DNA of 44,088 nt, from contig JAFTVE010000004.1 of assembly GCA_017465905.1 (NCBI GenBank), forward strand, positions 1 to 44,088, written 5' to 3'. Made by a program: the position numbers and the translations under genes. Positions 18,010 to 31,977 of this stretch are shown one piece after another. Origin of the DNA: Bacteroidaceae bacterium (GTDB taxonomy: Bacteria > Bacteroidota > Bacteroidia > Bacteroidales > Bacteroidaceae). Every line of letters begins with the position of its first letter. The stretch's first letter is position 1. The notes beneath the pieces were generated by a model. That model was not told where the DNA came from. It saw only the letters and a list, made by a program, of their open reading frames with translations, and did no database searches.

Positions 18010-18032
18010 CATAACTAATTTTTATAGTTATG
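18010..18032. promoter_or_regulatory. BlaI operator 2 (CATAACTA-N7-TAGTTATG) over the start codon
   Basis: Perfect 8-bp dyad: CATAACTA (18010-18017), spacer ATTTTTA, TAGTTATG (18025-18032). The right arm contains the ATG of the repressor gene, so the site covers the predicted transcription start and the start codon. BlaI/MecI proteins bind dyads as homodimers; this sequence differs from the staphylococcal TACA/TGTA operator. Confidence 0.65.
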
Positions 18033-18413
18033 AAAAAACTGGCAAGAAAAGAAGAAGAAATCATGGAGATGCTTTGGGAGAAAGGCCCCATGTTTGTAAA
18101 GGAAATGCTACTGCTCTGCGACGAGCCGCGCCCACACTTCAACACGATGTCTACCGTGGTGCGCAACCTTGAGACCCTGGGCTATGTGGGGCACAACGCC
18201 TTTGGCAGCACGTATCAGTACTACGCCCTGGTGTCGCGTGAGGAGTACCGCAAGATGACATTGCGTGGCGTGGTGAGCAAGTACTTCGACAACTCCTATC
18301 TGCGCGTAGTATCCTCACTGGTGCAGGAGGAGGAGATTACCCTCGACGAACTGAAAGAGCTCATACGCATGGTCGAAGAGGGCGGCGTTTCACAATTGAC
18401 AATTGACAATTGA
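18030..18413 (+). CDS. BlaI/MecI/CopY-family repressor
   Basis: 127 aa. The winged-helix start KLARKEEEIMEMLWEKGPMF is followed by FNTMSTVVRNLETLGYVGHN (recognition helix) and a C-terminal dimerisation region, LRVVSSLVQEEEITLDELKE. In the family, a membrane M56 protease signals and the repressor is inactivated; the M56 gene follows directly. Two AACTA-N7-TAGTT dyads flank its promoter, strongly suggesting autoregulation. The last residues (QLTIDN and stop) are encoded by a tandem repeat CAATTGA (18393-18418), so the natural C-terminus has been rewritten by an intergenic repeat. In Bacteroidetes such pairs are common and usually not linked to beta-lactamase. Confidence 0.9.
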   Translation: MKKLARKEEEIMEMLWEKGPMFVKEMLLLCDEPRPHFNTMSTVVRNLETLGYVGHNAFGSTYQYYALVSREEYRKMTLRGVVSKYFDNSYLRVVSSLVQEEEITLDELKELIRMVEEGGVSQLTIDN

Positions 18414-18418
18414 CAATT
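18393..18418 (+). repeat. CAATTGA tandem repeat at the end of the blaI-like gene
   Basis: Three and a half units of the heptamer CAATTGA run through the last codons and TGA stop into the gap. The same motif recurs at 21869-21927. Confidence 0.8.
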
Positions 18419-18452
18419 CCGCAGCGTAGTGAGAACAGAAACCGCTTGCGGG

Positions 18453-18506
18453 CAACTTTCATCTTTGACTTTAGCCCCTTCGGTTCATCTTTCAACTTTC
18501 AACTCT
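18453..18506 (+). repeat. CAACTTTCATCTTT-type repeat before the M56 gene
   Basis: Degenerate 7-nt units (CATCTTT, CAACTTT) sharing 21 identical bases with the repeat inside hemW. It is followed by AACCCTCAACCATAAACC-like units up to ATG 18530. Confidence 0.7.
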
Positions 18507-18529
18507 TAACCCTCAACCATAAACCAAAC

Positions 18530-20206
18530 ATGGGAACCTTCCTATCCTACACACTGAAATCGGCCTTCTGCCTCATCCTGTTCTATCCGGCCTACCGTCT
18601 GCTGCTGAGTCGGGAGACATTCCATCGGTTCAACCGCATAGCGCTGCTCGCCCTGTTGGCGCTGTCGGCTCTGCTGCCACTGGTAACCATCGGCAGCGCA
18701 CTACCTACAAGCAGCGTAGCTATGACAATGCCGCAGGCACTCCCTACCCTACAGCCGCAAGCCGTGGACGCTGTGCAGGAGGTGGCATCGGCACCGCTCA
18801 CCACACTTAGCTGGGCACATGTCCTGCTATGGATATACCTCCTTGGTTGCATCGTATATGCTTGCCATCAGCTGATTTCGTTCGTTCGACTGGGCAGTCT
18901 CATCCGCAAGGCAAAGCGCGAGCCGATGCCCGATTATATAAATATAAAAGAGAAGGGGACGCACGTCCGCCTGTACGTACACGACGAGGAGCTTGCACCA
19001 TTCAGCTGGATGCATCTGATTGTCGTGTCGCGCAAGAGCCTCGAGGAGAGTGGCCGCGCCATACTCATACATGAGCTGGCCCACATCGCCCATCGCCACT
19101 CGTGGGACCTGCTGCTGGCCGATGTGTGCCTGCTGTTCCAGTGGTTCAACCCCACGGCATGGCTACTCAAACAGGAGCTGCGCACCCTGCACGAGTACGA
19201 GGCCGACGACATGGTGGTGCAGAGCGGCATCAACGCGAGAGATTATCAAACACTATTAATAAAAAAGGCTGTTGGCACAAGGCTCTACTCTATGGCCAAC
19301 AACCTCAATCACAGTTCACTTAAAAAACGTATCACTATGATGTTGAAAAAACGATCAAATCCGTGGGCACGTCTGAAGTATCTCAGCATACTTCCGCTGG
19401 CCGCCTTGTCGGTGGCAGTGTTTGCCCGTCCCGAAGTCTCAAACAAGCTCAACGAGATTTCAAGTGTCAAAGTTAATGATTTAACTTCAATTGCAAAAGC
19501 AGATGAGGTTAAAAGTTCCGAAAATTCTCCTGCCAAGCTCGTCAACGTATCAGGAAAGGTCATCAATGAGCGAACAGGCAAGCCCATTGCAGGTGTAAAC
19601 ATCTGGGTGAGCAACCCGAGCGACGGACGTATGATAGCTTCAGTCGTATCATCACAAGATGGCAAGTTCTCATTGGAAAGTTACGAAGGTCTTGCTATAC
19701 GGTTCTCGTTCATTGGCATGCAGGAGCAAAAGGTTATCATCCCCCGAGGCGGAAGCAAGTCCATGACCGTGACAATGGGAGAATTGCCCTATAGCCTCGA
19801 AGAGATGATGGTCGTAGCCTACGCTCCCGAGAAGAAGTCGTACCCTGCACCCGAGCCAAAAACCTCATCGTCAAAAAGCGATGAAGGCGAGATATTCGTC
19901 GTAGTAGAGCAAACTCCCGAGTTCCCCGGTGGCATGGGCGAGCTCATGAAGTTCCTCCAACGAAATGTCAAATACCCTGCTGCTGCTCAGCAAGCAGGCA
20001 TACAGGGCAAGGTCGAGGTGGAGTTCACAGTAAAGAAAGACGGTAGCGTATCCGACGTCAAGGTCATCCGCAGCGTCAACCCCGAGCTCGATGCCGAGGC
20101 CGTACGCGTCATCAGCGCTATGCCGAAGTGGAAGCCGGGCGAGCAGCGCGGCACTCCCGTGGATGCCCGCTTCGAAATGCCCATCGTATTCCGACTCTCA
20201 GAATAG
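18530..20206 (+). CDS. M56 (BlaR1-like) membrane metallopeptidase with CarboxypepD_reg-like and TonB_C-like domains
   Basis: 558 aa. ATG 18530 is chosen because the longer frame (from 18410) reads through an intergenic repeat. Membrane helices are SAFCLILFYPAYRLLL, LLALLALSALLPLVTIGSA and LLWIYLLGCIVYACHQLI. The zinc motif HELAHIAHRH (H181-E182...H185) is followed by HEYEADD, which likely supplies the third ligand. After a further helix (YLSILPLAALSVAVFA) comes a periplasmic part: a CarboxypepD_reg-like beta-sandwich (LVNVSGKVINERTGKPIAGV ... FSFIGMQEQKVIIP) and a C-terminal TonB-like domain (EFPGGMGELMKFLQRNVKYP ... MPKWKPGEQRGTPVDARFEM). It is the partner of the upstream repressor: the peptidase would signal envelope stress and relieve repression. 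The TonB-like end may bind a partner in the envelope. Confidence 0.9.
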   Translation: MGTFLSYTLKSAFCLILFYPAYRLLLSRETFHRFNRIALLALLALSALLPLVTIGSALPTSSVAMTMPQALPTLQPQAVDAVQEVASAPLTTLSWAHVLLWIYLLGCIVYACHQLISFVRLGSLIRKAKREPMPDYINIKEKGTHVRLYVHDEELAPFSWMHLIVVSRKSLEESGRAILIHELAHIAHRHSWDLLLADVCLLFQWFNPTAWLLKQELRTLHEYEADDMVVQSGINARDYQTLLIKKAVGTRLYSMANNLNHSSLKKRITMMLKKRSNPWARLKYLSILPLAALSVAVFARPEVSNKLNEISSVKVNDLTSIAKADEVKSSENSPAKLVNVSGKVINERTGKPIAGVNIWVSNPSDGRMIASVVSSQDGKFSLESYEGLAIRFSFIGMQEQKVIIPRGGSKSMTVTMGELPYSLEEMMVVAYAPEKKSYPAPEPKTSSSKSDEGEIFVVVEQTPEFPGGMGELMKFLQRNVKYPAAAQQAGIQGKVEVEFTVKKDGSVSDVKVIRSVNPELDAEAVRVISAMPKWKPGEQRGTPVDARFEMPIVFRLSE

Positions 20207-22630: not shown

Positions 22631-22664
22631 GCAGAGAGGTATCATCAGTGATGCCTCTCGCTGC
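22631..22664 (+). terminator. Terminator of the beta-barrel gene
   Basis: AGAGGTATCA (22635-22644) pairs with TGATGCCTCT (22649-22658), one G-U pair, loop TCAG. GCAG/CTGC extend the stem past a 2-nt bulge. TTGTTTATT follows. Confidence 0.7.
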
Positions 22665-22672
22665 TTGTTTAT

Positions 22673-22763
22673 TCGCTCGATTATTCGTATCTTTCCTCTA
22701 AAAAAAAACGTTTTTTTATCGAACTGGCGTAAAAAGACACTTTTTTTATGTAAGTTTGCACTC
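22673..22763 (+). promoter_or_regulatory. Duplicated promoter element, copy in front of the hemerythrin-LuxR gene
   Basis: Near-identical (about 93%: 6 substitutions and a 2-nt indel over ~90 bp) to the minus strand at 29237-29325 in front of murB. Order of parts: right arm of the palindromic repeat (ATTCGTATCTTTC), perfect palindrome AAAAAAACGTTTTTTT (22702-22717), ATCGAACTGGCG, and -7 box TAAGTTTG (22751-22758) 21 nt before ATG 22780. No TTTG-like -33 box lies at the right distance, which may mean an activator is needed. Confidence 0.65.
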
Positions 22764-22779
22764 ACAAAATGATATACCC

Positions 22780-23736
22780 ATGAACGAAAGAAGACGATAC
22801 AGCGAGACCGACAGGATGAGTTCACTCATCAGCGACAACTACTCCCTGCTGATGGTGATGAGCCGTTTTGGCATATCGCTCGGATTCGGTGACCGCACGG
22901 TGGCAGAGGTGTGCGAGTCGCAAGACGTACACTGCCCCACCTTCCTCACCGTGGCCAACTTCATCAACGAGCCCATACACAAGGCCGGCAGCTACAAAAG
23001 CTATTCGCTGCCAGCCCTCCTCGACTACCTGAAGCGGGCACACTCCTATTTCCTCGACTTCAACCTACCCTCCATACGCCGCAAGCTCATCGAGACCATC
23101 GACTGCTCGGGAGCCGATGAGGTGGCCACGCTCATTCTCAAATTCTTCGACGAATATGCCCGCGAGGTGCGCCGACACATGGAATATGAGAACCGCAACG
23201 TATTCACCTACGTGGAGGAGCTGCTGGCCGGCAATATATCGAACACCTACGACATCGACACCTTCGCCAGCAAGCACAACCAGGTGAACACCAAGCTCAC
23301 GGAGCTGAAAAACATCATCGTGAAGTACTACCCCGGAAAGGAGAACAACAACCTGCTCAATGCTGTGCTCTTCGACATCTACAACTGCGAGCAGGACCTC
23401 GCCACCCATTGCGACGTGGAGGACTACCTGCTGGTACCTGCCGTCTCGGCCCTGGAGCAGCAGCTGCAGAAGGAGGCCCGCAATGCCAAAAAGGTGCAAC
23501 CGCAGGAGAAAGAGGTGGAGCAGGAGGCGCTGAGCGCACGCGAGAAAGATATCATAGCCTGTGTCGTCAAGGGTATGACCAACAAGCAGACTGCCGACAG
23601 CCTATGCCTGTCGATACACACCGTCATCACTCACCGGCGCAACATTGCCCGCAAACTGCAGATACACTCACCGGCAGGACTCACCATCTACGCCATCGTG
23701 AACAAGCTGGTCGATATTGCGGACATCAAATTGTAA
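22780..23736 (+). CDS. Hemerythrin (YtfE/RIC-like di-iron) - LuxR-type HTH transcription regulator
   Basis: 318 aa. The N-terminal part (LLMVMSRFGISLGFGDRTVA) resembles the ScdA_N/DUF542 segment of RIC proteins, but its CC pair is missing (LGFGD). The middle is a four-helix hemerythrin-like domain with H88, H133, E137, H166, H210 and E214. The spacings 45, 4, 44 and 4 equal those of the di-iron ligands of E. coli YtfE (H84, H129, E133, H160, H204, E208); the H133-H166 interval is two residues longer. After a charged linker comes a LuxR/GerE helix-turn-helix (LSAREKDIIACVVKGMTNKQ ... SIHTVITHRRNIARKLQIHS). It is therefore probably a cytosolic sensor of NO, O2 or iron state that binds DNA. ATG 22780 is preferred over a TTG at 22756 because it leaves a ~18-nt leader after the -7 box. 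Confidence 0.88.
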   Translation: MNERRRYSETDRMSSLISDNYSLLMVMSRFGISLGFGDRTVAEVCESQDVHCPTFLTVANFINEPIHKAGSYKSYSLPALLDYLKRAHSYFLDFNLPSIRRKLIETIDCSGADEVATLILKFFDEYAREVRRHMEYENRNVFTYVEELLAGNISNTYDIDTFASKHNQVNTKLTELKNIIVKYYPGKENNNLLNAVLFDIYNCEQDLATHCDVEDYLLVPAVSALEQQLQKEARNAKKVQPQEKEVEQEALSAREKDIIACVVKGMTNKQTADSLCLSIHTVITHRRNIARKLQIHSPAGLTIYAIVNKLVDIADIKL

Positions 23737-31912: not shown

Positions 31913-31944
31913 CAAAGATACTACAAATTAATATACAAAACAAT
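31913..31944 (-). promoter_or_regulatory. Promoter of the antiporter gene
   Basis: On the minus strand: ATTG (31944-31941), 20 nt, TATCTTTG (31920-31913), exact -7 box. The leader is about 40 nt to ATG 31869. Confidence 0.6.
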
Positions 31945-31977
31945 AGGTACTTATACGTATCTTTATGGTAAACCATG

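Follow-up and report, generated by a model that had tools for sequence, protein, structure and literature searches.

A hemerythrin–LuxR fusion from a Bacteroidaceae genome as a candidate di-iron regulator of iron acquisition

What might a di-iron domain of the iron-cluster repair type be doing at the head of a DNA-binding protein? The question is raised by a single gene in a 44,088-nucleotide stretch of DNA from a Bacteroidaceae bacterium (GenBank assembly GCA_017465905.1, contig JAFTVE010000004.1, positions 1 to 44,088 of the forward strand), referred to here in full as the window. A first-pass annotation had proposed that an iron-cluster repair or nitric oxide (NO)-handling domain had in this gene become a DNA-binding sensor. 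We consider it fairly probable that the gene is the one-gene form of a Bacteroidales regulator made of a hemerythrin-like protein and a LuxR-family (CdhR-type) protein, and that its product would serve as a di-iron-based sensor of iron, or of iron and redox state, that activates iron acquisition. Support at the level of sequence comes from homology, ligand conservation, the split and fused gene forms, a candidate operator, its fixed promoter spacing, the classes of genes that it marks, and its co-occurrence with the regulator. From these we infer the binding of iron, its role as the signal, the action of this protein on this operator, and the direction of the switch; the nature of the signal is the weakest link of the mechanism.

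A RIC-related di-iron domain joined to a LuxR helix-turn-helix

The gene and the parts of its product are as follows.

22780..23736, + strand: fused hemerythrin–LuxR regulator gene; 318 residues, ATG start, stop included, start backed by alignment.
22792..22959, + strand: N-terminal ScdA_N-like segment, residues 5–60; LGFGD replaces the Cys pair of RIC proteins and C45 is kept (hhalign comparison with RIC).
23020..23442, + strand: hemerythrin-like domain, residues 81–221, with putative ligands H88, H133, E137, H166, H210, and E214 (PF01814, E value 2.8e-9).
23476..23526, + strand: variable linker, residues 233–249, from the alignment; at this junction split relatives end their first gene and begin a receiver-like domain.
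23527..23694, + strand: LuxR/GerE helix-turn-helix (HTH), residues 250–305 (PF00196, E value 7.1e-15).

The ATG at 22780 is the start consistent with the relatives, and the alternative TTG at 22756 in the mechanical list of open reading frames (ORFs) is inconsistent with them. In the Pfam scan of this protein, the Hemerythrin match exceeds the family cut-off, no ScdA_N match (PF04405) appeared at E values up to 1, and no receiver domain was found. The NCBIfam model of RIC proteins (TIGR03652) matches with an E value of 9e-12 and 45.2 bits, far under its cut-off of 204.7 bits.

Profile comparison reveals homology along nearly the entire sensory part. The family alignment matches 24 RICs of the same order with an E value of 9.7e-24 over 223 columns (17% identity), covering residues 5–227. 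Against solved structures, the family profile matches ScdA (9r7j, 9j47) along its length with an E value of 5e-9 and YtfE (5fnn) across residues 115–221 with an E value of 1.6e-6. The six ligands stand, as first annotated, in the order of those of Escherichia coli YtfE (H84, H129, E133, H160, H204, and E208; PMC9052748) and nearly at their spacing, with steps of 45, 4, 29, 44, and 4 residues compared to 45, 4, 27, 44, and 4.

We searched 295 genomes of the order and found a match at an E value of 1e-20 or better in 192. From 115 hits, removal of duplicates left 75 nonidentical members, including the window protein; these were picked for score, gene form, and spread rather than at random, with gene starts set by script. 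The most divergent members are about 26% identical to the window protein, and only 14 positions are at least 95% conserved. H88, H133, E137, H210, and E214 are nonetheless invariant in 75/75, and H166 is aligned in 71/75, the other four carrying a His one alignment column away. Ligand conservation is thus well beyond chance. An apparent loss of H166 in four fused relatives was considered and rejected, as the His is displaced by one column.

The replacement of the N-terminal Cys pair is confirmed at residues 34–38 (LGFGD), where G35 and F36 occupy the columns onto which the CC of the 24 RICs aligns (35/36). This loss is not special to the window protein: none of the 74 members with residues at these columns has CC (one row is truncated), while G35 is conserved in 73/74. 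The 24 RICs were taken from 30 ScdA_N loci by filtering for an N-terminal CCGG, and their CC is present by construction. C45 is Cys in 74/74 members and in 20/24 of these canonical RICs. Among 198 genomes of the order, 28 carry canonical RIC genes (PF04405), separate from the regulator; some genomes, G002, G005, and G064 among them, encode both, and no canonical RIC was found in the window's own genome.

Among the 75 members, 33 are fused, 38 have a LuxR gene directly behind the hemerythrin gene (the intergenic distance ranging from −20 to 90 bases), and 4 have no partner found by script, one of which (L056) has a same-strand LuxR ORF overlapping the hemerythrin gene. In a quick tree of the family and the first 6 of the 24 RICs, the RICs split from the family with full support. 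The fused forms nest within the split ones, so the split form is most likely ancestral, and the sensor-plus-regulator unit seems older than the fusion. The fused or split state requires six parsimony changes on this tree; its starred branches also leave a single fusion origin possible.

The split partners are mostly 186–206 residues long (one has 163) and consist of an N-terminal receiver-like part and an HTH; the HTH of the window protein is 72% identical to that of the split partner in genome G106. Pfam lists no receiver for one of them (L018) and a sub-threshold receiver for another (L088). At the phospho-acceptor position, 37 partners (one two-pair locus counted once, the most divergent rows unsurely aligned) carry Asp in 2 cases and Asn in 28, and the Asp is replaced in 35/37. 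The fused protein has no receiver-like domain, and the variable linker ties the hemerythrin end to the HTH. Because the acceptor Asp is mostly replaced and the domain is absent from the fusion, the receiver-like part appears to couple the two proteins rather than to accept phosphate on Asp. Phosphorylation of CdhR has been mentioned within tyrosine signalling, which is compatible with loss of the acceptor Asp (PMC9666725).

The window's genome (2.84 Mb in 54 contigs, about 80% complete) encodes a second fused copy on contig 31, 58% identical to the window protein, and an unlinked LuxR gene on contig 12. Relatives in named records come from four Bacteroidaceae or Bacteroidales metagenome genomes (97, 83, 81, and 79% identity). 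A scan of the plasmid collection matched 42 records, of which 31 are from Rhizobium; four of the 10 matches listed, from Phocaeicola, Bacteroides, or Parabacteroides, align over 80% or more of the query, and two of these four carry the annotation of a hemerythrin protein with a response regulator. No relative was confirmed in two scans of viral contigs.

A candidate operator and the genes that it marks

Aligned upstream regions contain a candidate operator, AATACCTAnnnnTGGG/TATTG, an imperfect inverted repeat recognised by eye that resembles the half-sites and inverted repeat of NarL/LuxR-type regulators. We scored it with a weight matrix seeded with six split-gene sites, leaving the scored cluster (70% protein identity) out of training, and compared 73 family upstream regions (2 of the 75 rows had no upstream entry) with a control set of 462 regions upstream of other genes at these loci. 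The top 1% of controls was reached by 22/73 family regions, comprising 10/33 fused and 12/40 split or unpaired genes; the sequences in which the motif was first spotted included L009 and L043, and the left-out test is not fully blind to these two. Among clusters without a seed site, 12/45 reached the same level, where about one or fewer would be expected.

The −7 promoter element of Bacteroidetes has the consensus TAnnTTTG. A box of this type (T...TT[TC]G) starts exactly 22 bases behind the 25-mer in 13 of the 22 sites (4/10 fused, 9/12 split or unpaired); it starts one base further on in 1/22, and no other offset is shared by more than 3 sites, the 22 sequences being partly related. With this fixed spacing, 36.5 bases separate the middle of the operator from that of the −7 TTTG, a placement that could let an activator touch the polymerase. 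The operator is present before the orthologue with 79% identity (L009) and beside the contig-31 paralogue, there with its spacing towards a TonB operon. The promoter feature assigned to the window gene is the following.

22751..22758, + strand: Bacteroidetes-type −7 box TAAGTTTG; no operator at the expected distance upstream.

Scans of whole genomes yielded the element more often where the regulator is encoded. In a set of 13 chosen genomes, the 21-base core alone hit 26 times at 25 places, spread over 11 of the genomes, and its reversed pattern produced no hit; across the order it gave 91 sites in 55/119 genomes, compared to 46 sites in 28 genomes for the reversed control. This bare core is present in 43/75 genomes with the regulator and 12/44 without (p 0.001; reversed control 18/75 and 10/44), where "without" means no match at an E value of 1e-20 and weak relatives may escape. 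Requiring the −7 box at its fixed distance and permitting one mismatch, we found 68 sites in 23 of 24 chosen regulator genomes (reversed, 0/24) and, in the 119 genomes, 90 sites against 5 reversed. This form occurs in 39/75 genomes with the regulator and 9/44 without (p 0.0006, Fisher test, which ignores the kinship of these related genomes), and the exact form in 12/75 and 0/44 (p 0.003); the reversed control with box gave 3/75 and 2/44. Sites at regulator genes helped to find the motif; the other sites did not. Element occurrence is associated with the regulator over the 119 genomes.

In the window's own genome, an exact element precedes a TonB receptor–DUF4374–PepSY_TM operon that is divergent from the fused paralogue on contig 31, and a weaker element with two mismatches faces that paralogue itself. 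From an own-genome scan at three mismatches (13 hits, 4 reversed), only these two sites and one further site with a single mismatch, on contig 12, were taken up. On contig 54, a bare core precedes a second TonB receptor gene, touching the end of the preceding ORF and lacking the −7 spacing. One further three-mismatch copy, near the noise level, lies in the window at 31913–31961 on the − strand, 44 bases before a 393-residue ORF with no Pfam match.

Elsewhere in the order, the element precedes FeoAB in genomes G003 and G310, as identified by Pfam, and in three more by sequence likeness. It stands before TonB and DUF4876 genes in G106 (one mismatch in the box), and before TonB receptors, a TonB and PepSY_TM operon, and PepSY_TM in other genomes. 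Further sites precede an operon of a porin-like gene with imelysin and di-haem oxidoreductase genes behind it, genes for cytochrome c assembly (ResB/CcsA), a TetR gene, a DUF2249 gene, and the regulator itself, as well as a methyltransferase-like gene and a putative enolase gene, both named from their sequence.

Iron depletion has been reported to induce BT_2063-2065 (PepSY, DUF4374, TonB) 489- to 676-fold, and BT_3631-3633 (DUF4876, TonB) and BT_2475-2482 (CcsA, porin, thiol oxidoreductase, peptidase M75) each over 100-fold (PMC10434189). The same source describes induction of flavodoxin and TetR/ABC loci, of a Prevotella intermedia methyltransferase (64-fold), and of the regulator operon BT_0519-0520 itself (16- to 20-fold). 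Matched by gene class and not by locus identity, most of our target classes are those reported as induced by iron starvation.

Variant elements and recurring neighbours were also recorded. In the window's own genome (G000), on contig 12 at 73466–73514 (L238, L003), the variant AATCCTCATTTATGAGGATTG with a −7 box (one mismatch) precedes a glutathione peroxidase gene, and an element of the AATCCTCATTTATGAGGATTG type precedes a like gene in two genomes of the same genus. A LuxR gene of 205 residues lies about 1.1 kb beyond the contig-12 site, perhaps a paralogous regulator with its own operator. In G165 (contig 3, 333645; L292), the similar variant AATCCTAATTAATGAGGATTG is followed by a TonB receptor gene, an ORF of transporter type, and a radical SAM gene whose sub-threshold HemN_C match hints at a haem branch. 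A porin-like gene with a GYGE motif recurs divergent from the regulator or under the element (L175, L171, L174, L170, L262, and L264); two of these genes were scanned and had no Pfam match. Finally, an exact element with a −7 box in G258 (contig 19, 33501; L186/L288) has no ORF behind it by script and lies near a hemerythrin gene for which no LuxR partner was found, which may reflect an assembly error or a decayed gene.

A proposed mechanism and its rivals

In the mechanism that we propose, the RIC-derived N-terminal domain probably binds a di-iron centre, and this centre, through its occupancy or its redox state, would report cell iron, or iron and O2. The LuxR domain would bind AATACCTAnnnnTGGG/TATTG, probably as a dimer, about 36.5 nucleotides upstream of the −7 TTTG centre, and under iron shortage the regulator would activate iron-acquisition genes. 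For CdhR, activation of haem genes would be added, in line with its description as an activator of hmu (PMC10101095, PMC9666725). Split relatives would pass the signal between two proteins, perhaps via the receiver-like domain that lacks the phospho-acceptor Asp; in the fusion it would travel within one chain, the receiver-like domain being gone. Members that carry the site would show positive autoregulation.

Part of what the first-pass annotation proposed therefore carries over, namely a RIC-homologous domain, recognisable along its whole length, that is joined to a DNA-binding domain. The present reading differs in that the gene is no recent conversion of a repair protein into a sensor but a fused form of an older Bacteroidales gene pair. 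Because the predicted targets are largely iron-acquisition genes, iron, maybe with O2 or redox state, is also a better guess at the signal than Fe–S repair or NO handling.

Several observations weigh against the reading of the fusion as an iron-sensing activator, and we set them out together. The window gene itself has no recognisable operator in its upstream region, as 53% of control upstream regions score as high, and no iron gene was found among the neighbours of the window copy that were scanned. In the family, 51/73 upstream regions stay outside the top 1%, and the 10 fused positives include three near-copies (L002, L044, and L106). The bare core is only twofold above its reversed control, 15 of whose 46 sites lie in one genome; the one-mismatch element is also present in 9/44 genomes with no detected regulator, and the Fisher test takes no account of kinship. 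Some sites lie inside ORFs or before genes unrelated to iron (an AMP-binding enzyme, an alpha/beta hydrolase) and may be noise. Enolase has the element in three genomes and is unmentioned in the available portion of the cited iron-depletion data. Flavodoxin neighbours the pair in G165, yet the correctly spaced box faces the hemerythrin gene only and not fldA. In the published iron-depletion data, induction of FeoB is weak or not significant (roughly 2- to 6-fold, with P 0.25 for the largest value) and NrfAH with CcsA/ResB falls under iron depletion (PMC10434189). A predicted structure, made with the window protein and four aligned relatives, was poor (predicted local distance difference test score 52, predicted template-modelling score 0.50) and was not used.

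An unlikely alternative is that the protein senses NO, nitrite, or O2, its di-iron site reacting with NO or O2 as YtfE and hemerythrins do, and that it shields iron-dependent metabolism when the host is inflamed; the iron genes would then form one branch of the response. RIC ancestry and the chemistry of YtfE (PMC9052748) would suit such a role, as would the element before the DUF2249 gene, the variant form before the glutathione peroxidase gene of the window's own genome, and a drop of cdhR said to occur in microaerophilic conditions (PMC10101095). Many of the targets, however, are iron uptake systems, and it is iron depletion that induces the regulator operon (PMC10434189).

We regard as improbable the explanation that the operator belongs to another regulator, such as a Fur-like or other iron regulator, which would govern both the hemerythrin–LuxR genes and the iron genes and leave the fused protein with a different role. 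An autoregulatory-looking site and iron targets would look alike under a foreign regulator, and the bare upstream region of the window gene and the one-mismatch elements in genomes with no detected regulator would both follow. The operator is nevertheless a dyad whose distance from the −7 box is fixed and activator-like, it resembles NarL/LuxR-type half-sites, and its occurrence goes with the hemerythrin–LuxR regulator over the 119 genomes. The report of CdhR as an activator of hmu (PMC10101095, PMC9666725) likewise points to the regulator itself.

Very improbable is a relic di-iron site in a bundle that serves only dimerisation or structure, with the signal arriving elsewhere (tyrosine phosphorylation, cyclic di-GMP, or a protein partner), for although CdhR phosphorylation after contact with Streptococcus gordonii and a possible role as a cyclic di-GMP effector have been described (PMC10101095, PMC9666725), all six ligands persist in a family so divergent that few other positions do.

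An extension of the iron-sensing reading, plausible but held tentatively, is that the RIC-derived hemerythrin domain serves Bacteroidales as a main cytoplasmic sensor of iron starvation. A di-iron domain and a LuxR activator, in one chain or two, would then act from an operator about 36.5 nucleotides upstream of the −7 box to drive xenosiderophore (Xus-type), FeoAB, other TonB-receptor, and imelysin operons.

Known relatives and neighbouring features

The gene pair, its iron response, and a fusion in P. intermedia are already known (PMC10434189). The source, the one article on this fusion that the literature search turned up, describes two-gene forms, namely the CdhR operon PG1236-1237 of Porphyromonas gingivalis and BT_0519-0520 of Bacteroides thetaiotaomicron, and a single protein of P. 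intermedia, PIN17_RS10465, with a hemerythrin domain and a DNA-binding regulator. All share this combination with the window protein, as compared by description only. The CdhR operon and BT_0519-0520 are two genes; the window copy is fused, does not lie next to iron genes, and has no operator of its own. With the contig-31 paralogue, the window's genome has two fused copies.

The RIC proteins YtfE and ScdA (TIGR03652; PF04405 plus PF01814) have in common with the window protein the homology over residues 5–227, six ligands at nearly the same spacing, and Cys45, whereas the present family lacks the Cys pair and is fused to or paired with a LuxR regulator, and the window protein falls under the RIC cut-off. 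NarL/LuxR-type response regulators share the GerE HTH, the attachment of which the first-pass annotation had correctly recognised, but the fusion has no receiver, and the split partners have mostly lost the acceptor Asp. A hemerythrin-like iron sensor is also found in eukaryotes in FBXL5. Di-iron hemerythrin-like domains of BRUTUS and BTSL2 have been described as plant iron sensors that govern iron uptake (PMC12022348). FBXL5 and BRUTUS/BTSL2 act via ubiquitin ligation, whereas the window-type regulator would act via DNA, and the likeness is drawn from description.

Mechanisms of iron adaptation in Bacteroidetes are described as poorly known, and iron binding by CdhR as not demonstrated, in PMC10434189. 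Our literature search, which left subscription journals mostly outside, found no report of the operator or its promoter spacing, of the predicted regulon, of a receiver-like domain being lost on fusion, or of the kinship with RIC proteins and the missing Cys pair. The operator and the gene set that it marks look new. What the analysis yields is a candidate sensor whose putative metal ligands are named, together with the sequence of a probable operator, its geometry in the promoter, and a list of predicted targets. If the proposal is true, it would help to explain how dominant gut commensals turn on iron uptake in the inflamed gut, it would recast a repair-type di-iron domain as a bacterial iron sensor, and it would place a DNA-binding bacterial protein alongside FBXL5 and BRUTUS, the hemerythrin-like iron sensors of eukaryotes.

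Two other features of the window were recorded. A terminator-like hairpin of 11 pairs (22634–22659) lies between an outer-membrane protein gene and the regulator gene, which may therefore have its own transcript. At 18030–20206, a Penicillinase_R (BlaI-type) gene precedes one that encodes a BlaR1/M56 peptidase fused with CarboxypepD_reg and TonB_C domains.
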